The position numbers were made by a program, and so were the translations under genes. A DNA stretch of 24,793 bases from a virus, in IMG/VR virus record IMGVR_UViG_3300010392_001231, positions 1-24,793 of that record. The stretch is one strand, 5' to 3'. Below are positions 1,338-10,623 of this stretch, in pieces (within the stretch, counting starts at the first letter, position 1; each line of letters begins with the position of its first letter). The notes under the pieces are model-generated. The model worked only from the letters and a program-made list of their open reading frames with translations. It ran no database searches and was not told the DNA's origin.

Positions 1338-3410
1338 GTGGAATATTATCATAACATATTATGCTTTGAGGCTCATTGGCTCATAAATGGGATTACCTAC
1401 CAGGAGAAACAACAAGGTATGGCCCCAACCGGTGGTGTGATGACTCAAAATGATTACAAGAATTACAAGCTTGATAAAAGGGGCCGTGGATATATGGAGG
1501 TTGTTCGAAAAGCTTGCAGAAATACTCCAGCACTTGTAAGCTATGATACGATTCCGCAAAAATTCAAAGATAGGATCATTGATAAAATTGGTGGCGATCC
1601 TTACAAGCTTACTCAGAAATACGGATTTAAAGAAAGTGTAAGACCTGATGCAGCAGCTATGGAATATTATTCCAATTATAAATTGCCTGATGGCAAGAAT
1701 CTACCAGACAAAGCAATAAAGGAATACACCACAAATGCTGCAATTCTAAATACGATACATAGTGAGGTAAATAAGCGCGCTGCTAAGCGCAAAAGTATGG
1801 GGGGCGGCAATAAGTCGCAATTGTGGGAGAGTTTGGCAAAAGAGGTTGAAAAATTAAAGCATGAGACAGGCCATACTCTCCCTTCTAATACCCGCCGGTT
1901 AAAAGAAAAACTGAATCTTTATTTAAAGGATGGTTTTGATTCACTAGTTCACAAAAACTTTTGCAACGATAATCGCCGTAAGGTTACTGAACAACTCAAG
2001 CAATTATTCCTGGCATTATATAGTATGCCAAACAAGCCATATAATACGGATGTGCATGATCTATATCTGCAATTTATGGGAGGCTCTTTGGATATTGCTG
2101 ATCCTATTACGGGCGAGATGTTTGAGCGCGAGGATTTTTACGACAAAGATGGCAAGCCAATTATGGTTAGCGAGTCAACTGTTTGGAACTACATAAATGA
2201 CCCAATGAGTAGGGTGTTTGTAGACAAAGTAAGAACCGGTAGCTTAGAATTTCAAACGAAGCATAGACCTCATCACCAAAGACACGCTCCAAATTTCTCG
2301 CTTAGTAAGATATCAATGGATGACCGTGATCTGCCTCGCAAAATGACCGATGGTAGTAGGGTTAAAGCATACTATAGTTATGATGTTCTAAGTGGTTGTA
2401 TTGTAGGAGCCAGCTTTAGTAAATATAAAGACACGGCCCTATTCATCGACTGTATGCGTGATATGTTCAGGAACCTTAACCAATGGGGTTTGGGCATACC
2501 GATGGAGGCTGAAGTTGAGCATCACCTGGTTAATCAATTTAAGAATGACCTAATGCAAGCTGAGGTTGTATTTCCTTTAGTGCACTGGTGTGTTCCCGGC
2601 AACTCACAGGAGAAATATGCCGAGGTTCTGAATAAGCAAAAGAAGTATGGATATGAGAAGAAATACCAGCAAGGGATAGGCCGTTTTTATGCCAAGCTCG
2701 AAGCCAATCGACCTAAAACGGATAAGATATCGGATAAGTACAACAACAATTATAAAGAAAAAACCTACACCTACGATAAACTGGTTGCTGACGACTTAGA
2801 AACCATTGAATTATACAACAACGATTTACATCCAAACCAAAAGAAATATAAGGGCATGACTCGCATGGATGTTTTGTTGGCTTATCCTAATCCAGACCTT
2901 GTAAAACACAATCCGGCGAAACTTGCCAGGTATATTGGCGAAAGCACTTTAACATCGATAGATCGAAGCCAATATGTGCGTGTGCAGTATGGCAACTATC
3001 AACTACCAACCCCAACGGTGTTGGAGAAACTTGCACCAAATAATTACGATGTAAATGCCTACTACCTACCAAATGATGATGGAACTATTGACGAGGTATT
3101 CATTTATCAAAATGGCAACTATTTGGCTAGATGCGAAAAGGTTGAGCAATACAATCGGGCAAAAGCCGAATGGACTGAAAAGGATAAGGATGCTTACACA
3201 GAGCAAAGTAAGTATGTAAGCAGGTTCGATAAGCTGGTTAAGGACAATAAACCTAAAAAAGTAGCTGTAATTGAGCGCTCCGATCTTGATGAGGTGGTGA
3301 AAGTGGAAGCGGTTCAAATCGAAAAGCCAGCTCCTCCAACGATAGAGGATGACTTTGAAATTGACGATGATAATGAATGGTTAAAAAACAATGCAATAGA
3401 CAACTTATAA
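1338..3410 (+). CDS. Mu-like DDE transposase (MuA type)
   Basis: A 690-aa protein starting with GTG. It would recognise the phage ends and carry out strand transfer, giving integration and replicative transposition. The N-terminal 300 residues would hold end- and DNA-binding domains. The RNase H-like catalytic core runs from about 320 to 440: first acidic residues at D328/D329 (in SMDDRDLP), a middle block MEAEVEHHLV (389-398) where the second carboxylate is presumably one of E390/E392/E394 rather than a plain D, and the final glutamate E425 in GNSQEKYAE. After this comes a beta-rich domain (about 555-625) like the Mu transposase C-terminal barrel, then a basic segment and an acidic tail of the kind MuA uses to contact its ATPase. 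The downstream ATPase supports the assignment. The identity of the second catalytic residue is uncertain. Confidence 0.93.
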   Translation: MEYYHNILCFEAHWLINGITYQEKQQGMAPTGGVMTQNDYKNYKLDKRGRGYMEVVRKACRNTPALVSYDTIPQKFKDRIIDKIGGDPYKLTQKYGFKESVRPDAAAMEYYSNYKLPDGKNLPDKAIKEYTTNAAILNTIHSEVNKRAAKRKSMGGGNKSQLWESLAKEVEKLKHETGHTLPSNTRRLKEKLNLYLKDGFDSLVHKNFCNDNRRKVTEQLKQLFLALYSMPNKPYNTDVHDLYLQFMGGSLDIADPITGEMFEREDFYDKDGKPIMVSESTVWNYINDPMSRVFVDKVRTGSLEFQTKHRPHHQRHAPNFSLSKISMDDRDLPRKMTDGSRVKAYYSYDVLSGCIVGASFSKYKDTALFIDCMRDMFRNLNQWGLGIPMEAEVEHHLVNQFKNDLMQAEVVFPLVHWCVPGNSQEKYAEVLNKQKKYGYEKKYQQGIGRFYAKLEANRPKTDKISDKYNNNYKEKTYTYDKLVADDLETIELYNNDLHPNQKKYKGMTRMDVLLAYPNPDLVKHNPAKLARYIGESTLTSIDRSQYVRVQYGNYQLPTPTVLEKLAPNNYDVNAYYLPNDDGTIDEVFIYQNGNYLARCEKVEQYNRAKAEWTEKDKDAYTEQSKYVSRFDKLVKDNKPKKVAVIERSDLDEVVKVEAVQIEKPAPPTIEDDFEIDDDNEWLKNNAIDNL

Positions 3411-3429
3411 TTTAACTAATACTGGAAAT

Positions 3430-4311
3430 ATGTTAACAGCAGAACAAAAACAAAAAATTATTGATGCAGGATTAAAGGCTGAGAAAAACTTTGATAGTCA
3501 TATCAGGTTTGCTACAGCTATGGGTCTTAATGCTGCACAATGGAGCCGTGCAAGAAAGGGCGAACTTGACGGCGTTTTAAGTAGCGATAAGCTGCTTTCA
3601 TTAGCAAGAAAGTTAGGGGTTAATCTGAGTGAAAAGCGCGAGGTAATCCCTGCAAGTACACCTGTATTTCAATACATTCAGGTGCAATTAAGTGCTTGTC
3701 AAAAACACCAGCTGAGCGGCATTTTATGCGATTCGGCTGACATAGGTAAAACCTTTGCTGCAAAGCACTATGCACGAACTCATAAAAATGCTTTTTATGT
3801 GGATTGTAGCCAGTGTAAAAGTAAGCGTAAGTTAGTTCGCACAATGGCTGGAGCAATGGGTTTGGGCAAAGAGGGTACTTATGGCGAATTGTACGAAAAC
3901 TTAAACTTCTTTATCGAAACAACTCCTAATCCTTTATTTATTCTTGATGAAATTGGCGATTTGGAATATTCTGCATTCCTGGAGTTAAAAGCTCTTTGGA
4001 ATCGCAACGAATATAATTGCGGTTGGTACATGATGGGAGCCGATGGATTAAAAGCAAAAATAAACCGTGGATTGCAGTTTCAAAAAGTTGGTTATGCTGA
4101 AATGTTTAGCCGTTTGGGTAATCGTTTTCAGAGAATTACACCAGAGGGTGATGGAGAGGAAAAATCCTTTGCAAAAAAACAAATTGCCACTATTGCTAAG
4201 GTCAATGGAATAGAAGATAAGAGGGAAATTCAACGTCTATTTGTAAAAACCGATGGTTCGTTACGCAGATTGCATCTTGAAATTCAGAAAATGAAAATCA
4301 AGGAGGTGTAA
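3430..4311 (+). CDS. MuB-like AAA+ ATPase, transposition target selector
   Basis: A 293-aa protein, 19 bp after the transposase. Residues 1-66 form an N-terminal DNA-binding domain of the HTH type (FATAMGLNAAQWSRARKG), as in MuB. The ATPase follows: Walker A CDSADIGKTFAAK (100-112) with GKT but lacking the usual first glycine, as in MuB and IstB-type helpers, and Walker B LFILDEIG (169-176). A sensor-like region and a basic C-terminus with GSLRRLHLEIQK follow. MuB coats target DNA in an ATP-dependent way, delivers it to the transposase and gives target immunity. The order transposase then ATPase is diagnostic for Mu-like elements. Length is close to MuB (about 312 aa). Confidence 0.9.
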   Translation: MLTAEQKQKIIDAGLKAEKNFDSHIRFATAMGLNAAQWSRARKGELDGVLSSDKLLSLARKLGVNLSEKREVIPASTPVFQYIQVQLSACQKHQLSGILCDSADIGKTFAAKHYARTHKNAFYVDCSQCKSKRKLVRTMAGAMGLGKEGTYGELYENLNFFIETTPNPLFILDEIGDLEYSAFLELKALWNRNEYNCGWYMMGADGLKAKINRGLQFQKVGYAEMFSRLGNRFQRITPEGDGEEKSFAKKQIATIAKVNGIEDKREIQRLFVKTDGSLRRLHLEIQKMKIKEV

Positions 4312-5259: not shown

Positions 5260-5562
5260 ATGGCAAATCAAGCAAATATAGGCATACTAAAAGGGTTACA
5301 GGTTGAGCTTACGGACGAGGCTAATTATGTAACAGGTAAAAATCGCAGAGGTAAAATTACAGGGATTCATGCAATGCCTCTATGTCATGGGAAAAAGGTG
5401 TTTTTCCATATTGTTGGCCCGGGTATTAAAAACGGTAAAGGGGCTTTTTACACCATTCACTTTTTCAAGTTTGTGGAAAACGAAAACATTCAAAAAAGAA
5501 GCTATGGAAATGGAAACCAGAATGAAACAAAAAAGGCTGTTGATGCACCGGCTCATGTTTAG
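5260..5562 (+). CDS. Hypothetical phage protein
   Basis: A 100-aa protein of unknown function. The middle is beta-rich (GKKVFFHIVGPGIKNGKGAFYTIHFFKFVE) and the tail is polar and low in complexity (SYGNGNQNETKK). It begins 12 bases after the ATPase stop with a modest AAAGGAA upstream, and its last 59 bases overlap the next gene in another frame. No catalytic motif is visible. Confidence 0.65.
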   Translation: MANQANIGILKGLQVELTDEANYVTGKNRRGKITGIHAMPLCHGKKVFFHIVGPGIKNGKGAFYTIHFFKFVENENIQKRSYGNGNQNETKKAVDAPAHV

Positions 5563-5941
5563 ATTGGGTGTTGCTGAAAACAAGCCAGATATACTGGCAC
5601 AATATCAAGCAGAAAGCACATTGGATTTATCGGAGCAAGAGCTTGATGATGTGATTAAGCGCTTATCGGTAAGCACTCATAAACGCAGGGTGGCAACTCC
5701 TGACGAAAGAAAATGGAGAAGCAATGTACTAGTGCAATTGAACCGATGTGGAGTTTATGCCACCAATGGAGATTGGAGCCAAGTAAACAAGTATTTACTA
5801 GATAAGCGCATTTGGGGAAAGCTACTGTACGAGCTTTCTGTAAAGGAACTAAAAAGCCTCTGCACTAAGCTGCGAGTTATTGCAGATAAAAAGGAGGTTT
5901 CTGATAAAAAAGCAGTTACAAACGGATATTCTTTAAACTAA
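5504..5941 (+). CDS. Hypothetical phage protein, possibly GemA/gp16-like
   Basis: A 145-aa protein. The frame is open further upstream, to 5369, but that part overlaps the previous gene and looks non-coding, so I place the start at the ATG at 5504; 5510 and 5522 are alternatives. The N-terminus is basic and helical (MKQKRLLMHRLMFRLGV), then a small helical region with LSEQELDDVIKRLS. The C-terminal part WRSNVLVQLNRCG, then DWSQVNKYLLDKRIWGKLLYELSVKELKSLCTKL, is a helical domain. The pattern of a KxxL helix, an Leu-Ser-x-x-Glu-Leu block and a helical C-terminus recalls Mu GemA/gp16 (DUF1018), which sits in the same region of Mu. That resemblance is weak and unproven. The stop overlaps the next start (TAATG). 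Confidence 0.6.
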   Translation: MEMETRMKQKRLLMHRLMFRLGVAENKPDILAQYQAESTLDLSEQELDDVIKRLSVSTHKRRVATPDERKWRSNVLVQLNRCGVYATNGDWSQVNKYLLDKRIWGKLLYELSVKELKSLCTKLRVIADKKEVSDKKAVTNGYSLN

Positions 5942-7033: not shown

Positions 7034-7074
7034 TTTAAATCTCATTTAATAACCATTTAAATATCGTTGAAATG
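7034..7074 (+). repeat. 11-bp-periodic TTTAAA array B, ending in the ATG at 7072
   Basis: Units start at 7034, 7045, 7056 and 7067, each 11 bp apart: TTTAAATCTCA, TTTAATAACCA, TTTAAATATCG and TTGAAATG. The last unit contains the start codon of the next gene (A of the ATG at unit position 6). Unit, spacing and register match the arrays at 18981 and 24131. It marks the start of a new block of genes after DUF3164, so I read it as a control site, at the DNA or the mRNA level. Confidence 0.75.
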
Positions 7075-7299
7075 ACACAAGCAAAAGCAATCGTTAAGAT
7101 TGATTCAATGGAGCAGCAAAAGCTCACAAAGGCGGTTTTTGGTACCGCTGTTTTTGAAACAAAAGCCAAAGATAGTAAGGATGAACAACCTACCACGGCG
7201 GTAAAGTTTGTAATTCCAAATGAACTACCTGAAGCTAAGTTTTTTAAAACTGGCGAAGAGGTGGTGTTGACTTTAACCAAAGTTGAAGTAAGCAAGTAA
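7072..7299 (+). CDS. Hypothetical protein under array B
   Basis: A 75-aa protein, basic in the first half, with hydrophobic strands in the second (VKFVIPNELPEAKFF, EEVVLTLTKVEV), so a small beta-rich fold is likely. No known motif. It is the first gene after the 11-bp array, whose last unit includes its start codon. The tRNA-like gene follows eight bases after its stop. Function unknown; its place could suit a small regulator or accessory factor. Confidence 0.65.
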   Translation: MTQAKAIVKIDSMEQQKLTKAVFGTAVFETKAKDSKDEQPTTAVKFVIPNELPEAKFFKTGEEVVLTLTKVEVSK

Positions 7300-7306
7300 A
7301 AGGTTT

Positions 7307-7380
7307 TCCCGGTTCGTCTAGCGGTCTAAGAATCGAGTTTAAAAGACTTGAGAACGCGGGTTCGAATCCCGCACCGGGAG
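7307..7380 (+). tRNA. tRNA-like gene with anticodon AAA
   Basis: A 74-nt cloverleaf. Acceptor stem TCCCGGT pairs perfectly with ACCGGGA (7 bp). The D arm has G18G19 and a stem GTCT/AGAA with one G-A mismatch. Anticodon stem CGAGT/ACTTG has one G-T pair. The seven-base loop TTAAAAG places AAA at 34-36 (7341-7343). The variable region is AGAAC. The T arm is GCGGG-TTCGAAT-CCCGC with a perfect 5-bp stem. The discriminator is G73 and CCA is not encoded. Formally it is tRNA-Phe(AAA), but phenylalanine tRNAs normally carry GAA and A73, so the amino acid is uncertain. The plus-strand position between two operon genes implies processing from the phage transcript. Confidence 0.85.
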
Positions 7381-7409
7381 CTATTTCAATTAAGAATGAA
7401 TAATTAACA

Positions 7410-8393
7410 ATGAAGGTTTTAGTTCAATATTCAGGAGGTAAAGATTCTCAAGCAGCTTTGATCTGGGCTGCTAAGAAATATGGTGTTAAAAACATACAAG
7501 CTGTTTTTTGTGATACTGTATGGGAACATGATTTGACTTATAAGCACATTATTGATACCTGTGCTGATTTAGGAGTTGAGTTGAAGATTCTAAAATCACA
7601 GAAGTATGATGGAATGCTTGACTTGGCAAAAAAGAAAAAGCGTTTTCCTTCCACTAGAGCAAGGTTCTGTACAGAGGAGTTGAAAACAAAAGCTTTCATT
7701 GATTACGTGCTTGACTATTGTAAGGATATATTGGGAATACAAGGAATAAGGAGCGCCGAGAGCTATAATCGTTCCAAAATGCAAGCTCAATGCACTGTGT
7801 TTAAGTACTATTTTGAACCTTATCAAACTAATTCAATGATAGTCGAGTACTTGGAATCGCTCCAAAAACTATCAAAGGTTCAAAATCAAAAACTCACTAA
7901 AGCAAAAAATAGATTAGCTCAGGGCAAAGAAGACCCTAAGTTTCACACTTATCGCAAAGATGAGGTTTTTGACTTTGTTAAGGTTTACGCAACGGATATT
8001 CTTAGACCTCATTTTGATAAATCGGGTCAATACGTAATCGATTTTATAATTGAAAATGGCCAAGTGCCAAATCCTTTGTATTACATGGGGGCTAAACGTG
8101 TTGGCTGTTATCCTTGCTTTATGTCAGGGCATGTTGAAGTATTTCAAATAATAAAACGTGATCCACACAGGATTGATGAAATAGGTCAGTATGAGGATGA
8201 GATTGGATCATCGTTTTTTAAGATCGATTACATTCCTAAAAAATTTCAAACGGGAGTCTGCAAAAGAACGGGCAAATCCTTTACTAAGGCCGCTGACGTT
8301 AAAAAATACCTGTTAGCAAAAAACGCAACTCTCAACATGTTTGAGCCAGATGCTGCAATTTCATGTTCAAGCTATTATCACTTATGCGAATAA
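7410..8393 (+). CDS. PAPS-reductase-family PP-loop protein
   Basis: A 327-aa protein with the PP-loop SGGKDS (8-13), which binds ATP and releases pyrophosphate, followed by VFCDTVWEHDLTY, GIQGIRSAESYNRS (110-122) and NPLYYMGAKRVGC, all characteristic of the phosphoadenosine phosphosulfate reductase family. Cysteines C87, C233 and C236 (GCYPC), C319 and C326 could hold an iron-sulfur cluster, as in DndC-like and related enzymes. Phages carry such proteins often, and their substrates are rarely known. Options are sulfur transfer to nucleic acid (a tRNA base or the DNA backbone) or sulfate reduction. No dnd partner genes are present, so phosphorothioation is not supported. It starts 29 bp after the tRNA-like gene, which makes a tRNA-related role worth testing. 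Confidence 0.85.
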   Translation: MKVLVQYSGGKDSQAALIWAAKKYGVKNIQAVFCDTVWEHDLTYKHIIDTCADLGVELKILKSQKYDGMLDLAKKKKRFPSTRARFCTEELKTKAFIDYVLDYCKDILGIQGIRSAESYNRSKMQAQCTVFKYYFEPYQTNSMIVEYLESLQKLSKVQNQKLTKAKNRLAQGKEDPKFHTYRKDEVFDFVKVYATDILRPHFDKSGQYVIDFIIENGQVPNPLYYMGAKRVGCYPCFMSGHVEVFQIIKRDPHRIDEIGQYEDEIGSSFFKIDYIPKKFQTGVCKRTGKSFTKAADVKKYLLAKNATLNMFEPDAAISCSSYYHLCE

Positions 8394-9812: not shown

Positions 9813-10623
9813 AGAATTCAAAGGAAAAGCAATTTATAACCCTTCAGGTAAAGCTGGAGAGTATTCTGTTTGGGCATGTAATTTCTATGTGGGATGCTCC
9901 AATGGTTGTACTTACTGTTACCTCAAAAAAGGTCGTGGTGCAAAAATTTTGGGTGGTGCAACTCCAACCCTTAAGAGTTGCTTTAAAAATGAAGCTCATG
10001 CAATGGAAATTTTCGACCGTGAGTTATTAAAGAACCTCGATGAACTTAAAAAACATGGTTTGTTCTTTAGTTTCACCACCGATCCGATGCTTGATGAAAC
10101 TATTGAGTTAACACAATTGGCTGCGCGCTTTTGTCTTGTTTATGACATCCCTGTAAAAATTCTTACCAAAAGAACCCAATGGGTATATCCATTCTTAAAA
10201 GAGTTAGTTAACAATGATACTATTTGGAATTTGGATTGGCAATATAAGTATCAAATTGCTTTTGGTTTTACTTTAACAGGACATGACGATCTTGAGCCTA
10301 ATGCCTGTGCACATTCTGAAAGGATTAAAGTAATGGAAATGCTCAATAGAGAAGGTATTAAAACCTTTGCCAGTATTGAGCCTATTATCTCTTTTCAAGC
10401 TAGCCTAAACATGATAAACCAAACTGTTGACTTTTGCGACCTGTACAAGGTTGGTTTAGAAAGTGGTAAAAAATATGATGTGGTGGAGGGACAAACATTT
10501 GTTGAACGCCTGATGGAACTGGACAACCCGGTATATTTAAAAGAGTCGTTGCAAAAGCTTACCCATTATACCAATGCAGACTCTGAGAATTTTGTAGAAC
10601 GCGATTTTAATTTATTTGAGTAA
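9802..10623 (+). CDS. Radical SAM protein, SPL/photolyase-related
   Basis: A 273-aa protein. The frame is open upstream, but the ATG at 9802 has a strong GGAGG (9791-9795) eleven bases before it and starts the conserved part. The [4Fe-4S]-binding motif C-x3-C-x2-C is at C32, C36 and C39 (GCSNGCTYCYL). The (beta-alpha)6 pattern continues with SFTTDPM, PVKILTKRTQW, IAFGFTLTGHDDLEPNA, and GIKTFASIEPII. This resembles the SplB-like radical SAM enzymes (COG1533), which include spore photoproduct lyase. In phages this group has no known substrate; nucleic-acid repair or modification is a guess. The stop overlaps the next start (TAATG), so it is coupled to the ASCH-like gene. Confidence 0.85.
   Translation: MKSKEFKGKAIYNPSGKAGEYSVWACNFYVGCSNGCTYCYLKKGRGAKILGGATPTLKSCFKNEAHAMEIFDRELLKNLDELKKHGLFFSFTTDPMLDETIELTQLAARFCLVYDIPVKILTKRTQWVYPFLKELVNNDTIWNLDWQYKYQIAFGFTLTGHDDLEPNACAHSERIKVMEMLNREGIKTFASIEPIISFQASLNMINQTVDFCDLYKVGLESGKKYDVVEGQTFVERLMELDNPVYLKESLQKLTHYTNADSENFVERDFNLFE

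Follow-up and report, generated by a model that had tools for sequence, protein, structure and literature searches.

The virus record IMGVR_UViG_3300010392_001231 is 24,793 bases long and was analysed over its whole length (the window). Its genes follow a Mu-like order, worked out in part by tblastn to related phages: transposase-type genes (1338-4311) and an early gene block come first, and the minus strand then carries the terminase, portal, and minor-capsid genes. Annotated phages with similar transposases come from Bacteroidota, and the carrier is a Mu-like Bacteroidota phage whose early region holds the sole tRNA gene of the record. The closest phages have transposases that are 46-57% identical, and a transposase search of 395 Bacteroidota genomes returned no prophage kin, a result of little weight alone. 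Further along the window, at 9850-10623, lies a gene for a radical-SAM protein (DUF5131 / PA0069-like) that the nearest phages share at 61%.

The tRNA gene occupies positions 7307-7380 on the plus strand and sits between two genes of the same orientation. Upstream, a 75-aa open reading frame (7072-7299) ends with its stop codon 7 nt before the tRNA; no family was found for it, and with the search method used IMG/VR yielded no relatives. Downstream lies a gene (7410-8393) for a 327-aa PP-loop protein of the PAPS-reductase family (PF01507, phrog_424), whose ATG is 29 nt past the tRNA. Promoter and terminator counts near the tRNA did not rise above chance, so that the tRNA would probably be co-transcribed with its neighbours and then trimmed from the surrounding message.

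ARAGORN calls the gene as tRNA-Phe(aaa) at 7307-7381, and Rfam places it in the tRNA family (RF00005; 47.1 bits, E 2.4e-7, gathering threshold 29). The tRNA is therefore real by two methods, as is the combination of anticodon AAA with G73 that the original prediction had described. Its RF00005 score ranks among the bottom few when compared with the 88 tRNAs of a Chryseobacterium genome under the same family model, still inside the normal range. The acceptor stem (UCCCGGU/ACCGGGA) forms 7 of 7 pairs, beginning with U1-A72 and followed by the discriminator G73, with no encoded CCA. The D arm, GUCU-AGCGGUCUA-AGAA (7316-7332), resembles that of tRNA-Glu in the cmscan alignment and by comparison; it keeps U11-A24, has U13-A22 in place of the U13-G22 of tRNA-Glu, and forms three of its four pairs, G10-A25 being a mismatch. 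The anticodon arm, CGAGU-UUAAAAG-ACUUG (7334-7350), has standard 5+7 geometry with all five stem pairs formed (one of them G.U, at 28-42) and a loop that reads U32 U33 A34 A35 A36 A37 G38, the anticodon lying at 7341-7343, A37 at 7344, and G38 at 7345. A variable loop of 5 nt, AGAAC (7351-7355), includes position 47, which most tRNA-Glu lack, and the T arm, GCGGG-UUCGAAU-CCCGC (7356-7372), is made of 5 of 5 standard pairs. Across all stems, 20 of 21 pairs are standard, so that the cloverleaf, earlier described as sound in all stems, is sound in all but one pair of the D stem. A register shift of the anticodon to UUA or UAA was rejected, since alternative foldings of the arm merely lengthen the same stem and hold the same register; a simple error in homopolymer length is likewise an unlikely explanation, because the loop has the normal 7 nt.

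Isotype was assessed with the anticodon masked, against 850 other distinct tRNAs from the Bacteroidota genomes and phages fetched, which are not a random sample. Glu was the best isotype for the body as a whole, with a best score of 31 compared with 27 for Lys, 22 for Gln, 15 for Asn, and 7 for Phe; at the head of the Lys group stand genes that have a Glu body and an enlarged anticodon loop and that ARAGORN labels as Lys. In the Bacteroidota compared, the D-arm segment UUCGUCUAG is characteristic of Glu, and the likeness to Bacteroidota tRNA-Glu (UUC/CUC) takes in the UUCGUCUAGnGGUnUA segment, the T arm, and the overall body. In contrast, those tRNAs carry mostly G1.U72 or G1-C72 with A73, where the phage tRNA has U1-A72 and G73 besides its AAA anticodon; A22 and A25 are also unlike tRNA-Glu, and the variable loop has 5 nt rather than mostly 4. 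Among 46 scored tRNA-Glu, the acceptor end is G1.U72-A73 in 33 and G1-C72-A73 in 6, and in none is it U1-A72-G73, a combination that elsewhere in the set occurs only in tRNAs for Asn (16), Gln (14), and Trp (1). G38, too, is rare in the comparison tRNAs.

None of the published identity sets for Glu, Gln, Asn, or Phe is complete in the phage tRNA. Glu identity draws on U34 U35 C36 A37, U11-A24, U13-G22:A46, and the lack of residue 47 (PMC9976931), of which the phage tRNA keeps only A37, U11-A24, and A46. For Gln the set is G73, U1-A72, G2-C71, G3-C70, G10, and U34 U35 G36 A37 U38 (PMC9976931); here the phage tRNA has the acceptor end of bacterial tRNA-Gln and tRNA-Asn, U1-A72 with G73, together with G10 and A37, but it differs at C2-G71, C3-G70, the anticodon, and G38, and its body is unlike both Gln and Asn. 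U1-A72 is also relied on by the Gln/Asn amidotransferases (PMC9976931). From the Asn set, anticodon GUU plus G73, only G73 is present. Phe requires G34 A35 A36 and A73, with G34 and A73 strictly conserved determinants (PMC9976931), which agrees with the earlier judgement that G73 is wrong for phenylalanine; the phage tRNA shares A35 A36 and U20 with tRNA-Phe and departs from it at A34, G73, U1-A72, A59, and the entire body. A point mutant of a Phe tRNA was rejected as an origin on account of this body. By its sequence, then, the phage tRNA is of mixed identity: its body is of Glu type, its acceptor end of Gln/Asn type, and its anticodon of Phe type. The original prediction had rightly picked out AAA and G73 and had overlooked the Glu-like body and the Gln/Asn-like acceptor end, and its suggestion of a new tRNA identity found no support. 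The question moves from an odd Phe tRNA to a tRNA without a coherent identity.

The anticodon AAA is, as had been claimed, almost never used: among 851 distinct tRNAs in the collected loci it was called in the phage tRNA and in one other, doubtful prediction (L269), compared with 18 for Phe GAA. Comparison with related phages for conservation of loop and stems, which the original prediction had proposed, yielded no homologue, as the nearest phages (those with 46-57% transposase identity) have no tRNA at the equivalent site or elsewhere in the records searched. Among 395 genomes of one Bacteroidota class, that of a Flavobacterium genome, not one carried a Glu-bodied AAA tRNA. A complete two-gap scan of IMG/VR, with a pattern that combined a D arm of CTAG type with a UUAAAA loop and a T arm, recovered no other such tRNA either; its 11 stretches are each a Leu-UAA tRNA or not a tRNA. 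The records closest to the window possibly fell outside these scans. Two further patterns were discarded: a looser one of Glu body plus TTAAAA gave chance matches only, among the matches listed, and 68 of 70 tRNA calls from a TTAAAA-to-T-arm pattern were Leu-UAA, again among the matches listed. A literature search for phage tRNAs with an AAA anticodon turned up nothing on point. The phage tRNA thus has no homologue in the sequence collections searched, and the finding is an unusual one based on one sequence.

Is such a gene decaying, or is its fold constrained? Compared with well-parsed host tRNA-Glu, the stems show 13-17 base differences, and in 5-7 pairs both partners have changed (six tRNA-Glu sequences were used, and L353, probably mis-parsed, was set aside). 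Random substitution of the same number of bases would retain about 11-12 pairs, and the 20 of 21 observed despite this divergence point to selection on the fold through most of it, whether in the present phage line or in an ancestor. The broken stems of a pseudogene are not seen. In addition, the 1-72 pair differs from Glu on both sides along with N73, a change more suggestive of re-specification than of decay. Some relaxed constraint would fit with the G10-A25 mismatch, the rarity of G38, and the low covariance score. The earlier suggestion of a decaying gene is therefore borne out in part, since identity has been lost and no conservation is seen, and is at odds with the nearly intact stems.

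The adjacent PP-loop gene had suggested that the tRNA might be a substrate of a neighbouring modifying enzyme. Proximity on the same strand favours this idea, as does the fact that some PP-loop enzymes thiolate or otherwise modify tRNA, and one relative of the gene (L012) likewise has a tRNA just upstream. The protein itself points elsewhere. Its AlphaFold2 model (mean pLDDT 86.8) matches APS/PAPS reductases best (Z 13-14.5, rmsd 2.5-3.8, 168-183 residues aligned), and the tRNA-acting PP-loop enzymes TtuA, NcsA, and MesJ/TilS rank lower in the fold list; among defence proteins its best match is SspD, which belongs to DNA phosphorothioation systems, followed by BrxP and DndC. Moreover, among about two dozen relatives, L012 alone has a tRNA directly upstream. 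We thus consider it very improbable that the tRNA is a modification substrate of this protein. At L012 itself (5375-5854 of that IMG/VR contig), ARAGORN calls a permuted tmRNA and then an ordinary CAU tRNA directly upstream of the PAPS-reductase-type gene.

The usual explanations for phage tRNAs are codon supply and the replacement of tRNAs cut by host defences, both of which require decoding. UUU makes up 75% of Phe codons in this AT-rich phage, where it is an ordinary, common codon, and the usual bacterial GAA tRNA already reads it; there is therefore no evident decoding need, codon supply is unlikely, and codon compensation was rejected. A working elongator for UUU, with A34 unmodified or converted to inosine and charged with Phe or another amino acid, would be in keeping with U33, A37, the 7-nt loop, and the standard cloverleaf, with the frequency of UUU, and with the agreement of A35, A36, and U20 with Phe determinants. 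We nevertheless judge it decidedly unlikely, as both strictly conserved Phe determinants are missing, the body scores poorly against Phe tRNAs, and 3.6% of codons would be mistranslated if the charge were not Phe. Nor is the gene likely to replace a tRNA that host defences have cut, because in a tested case, where a phage tRNA replaces the cleaved one, a changed anticodon abolished rescue (PMC11555353), and in phage tRNAs with changed anticodon loops that are predicted to be nuclease-resistant, the anticodon and the codon assignment are retained (van den Berg 2023, PMC10264068).

The explanation that we tentatively favour, at a little short of an even chance, is that the phage tRNA is a structurally intact relict that has lost its decoding identity. 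It would be an accessory tRNA gene of Glu-type body, its tRNA fold still in place, in which AAA, U1-A72, G73, A22, and position 47 would jointly fit no single aminoacyl-tRNA synthetase; the product would thus most likely be charged poorly or not at all and carry no weight in translation. The main rival to the relict reading is a functional mimic that decodes nothing and acts outside translation, binding a host tRNA-directed factor, such as an anticodon nuclease directed at tRNA-Glu, but not as its normal substrate. Retention of the fold while identity was lost is consistent with such a role, and the anticodon nuclease RloC, expressed in Escherichia coli, favoured tRNA-Glu (PMC2610378); it is tempting to speculate, by analogy, that an RloC-type nuclease is one concrete factor that a Glu-bodied mimic could engage. 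The predicted nuclease resistance of changed-loop phage tRNAs (PMC10264068) and the presence in other phages of tRNA-like genes whose anticodon arm is extended by an insert also argue for it. On the other hand, the absence of a homologue leaves no sign of conservation, in a tested case the phage tRNA works by replacement and fails once its anticodon is changed (PMC11555353), and the genes beside the tRNA include none recognised as defence or counter-defence except the SspD-like PP-loop match. A mimic is therefore possible, if somewhat unlikely. Perhaps identity was even stripped by selection, leaving an RNA that decoys or inhibits a host factor for tRNA cleavage or tRNA charging and that would be loosely comparable to the insert-bearing tRNA-like genes; this we regard as unlikely, and the decoy already raised in the original prediction, while possible, has no homologue to show its conservation.

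The insert-bearing phage tRNA-like genes may be stronger leads than the AAA tRNA. A contig of Chryseobacterium indologenes (L003:12036-12141, the same as L024) carries, near the gene of PAPS-reductase type, a tRNA-like gene in which the acceptor, D, and T arms are intact and the anticodon arm is longer by about 33 nt with internal hairpins; homologues with 90% identity and a nearly unchanged insert occur in 2 of 147 other genomes of the genus (L406, L407). More phage tRNA-like genes have tens of extra bases within or close to the anticodon arm (L022:723-867, L013:11461-11557, L074, L127, L077, L217, L228, and L249), and L074 and L127 have Glu-type bodies. In the collected loci, a biased sample of 1.9 Mb, 13 long ones were found, compared with none in the reversed control; such genes are missed by ARAGORN. 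In bacterial genomes, near base 1500 on the minus strand of L327, L328, L330, and L337, lie Glu-bodied tRNA genes whose anticodon loop has 9 nt (UGUUUUCAG or a variant of it), named Lys or Glu by ARAGORN, the first three in a near-identical setting. A Chryseobacterium genome (L190; G003 contig C1, 737169-739664) contains divergent tRNAs, most of them low-scoring, in a dense array that looks phage-derived.

If the phage tRNA is functional, a folded phage tRNA with conflicting anticodon, acceptor, and body would require a third explanation beyond the two usual ones. If it is non-functional, it would indicate that the identity of a phage tRNA can be lost while its fold persists. Among known systems, the tRNAs described by van den Berg (2023) resemble it in being phage-borne and in having a changed anticodon loop; those tRNAs, however, retain both anticodon and codon assignment, whereas here the anticodon itself has been replaced. 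A phage tRNA of the nuclease-resistant kind would be expected to preserve its codon assignment, to have loop changes at a known cleavage site, and to restore translation.
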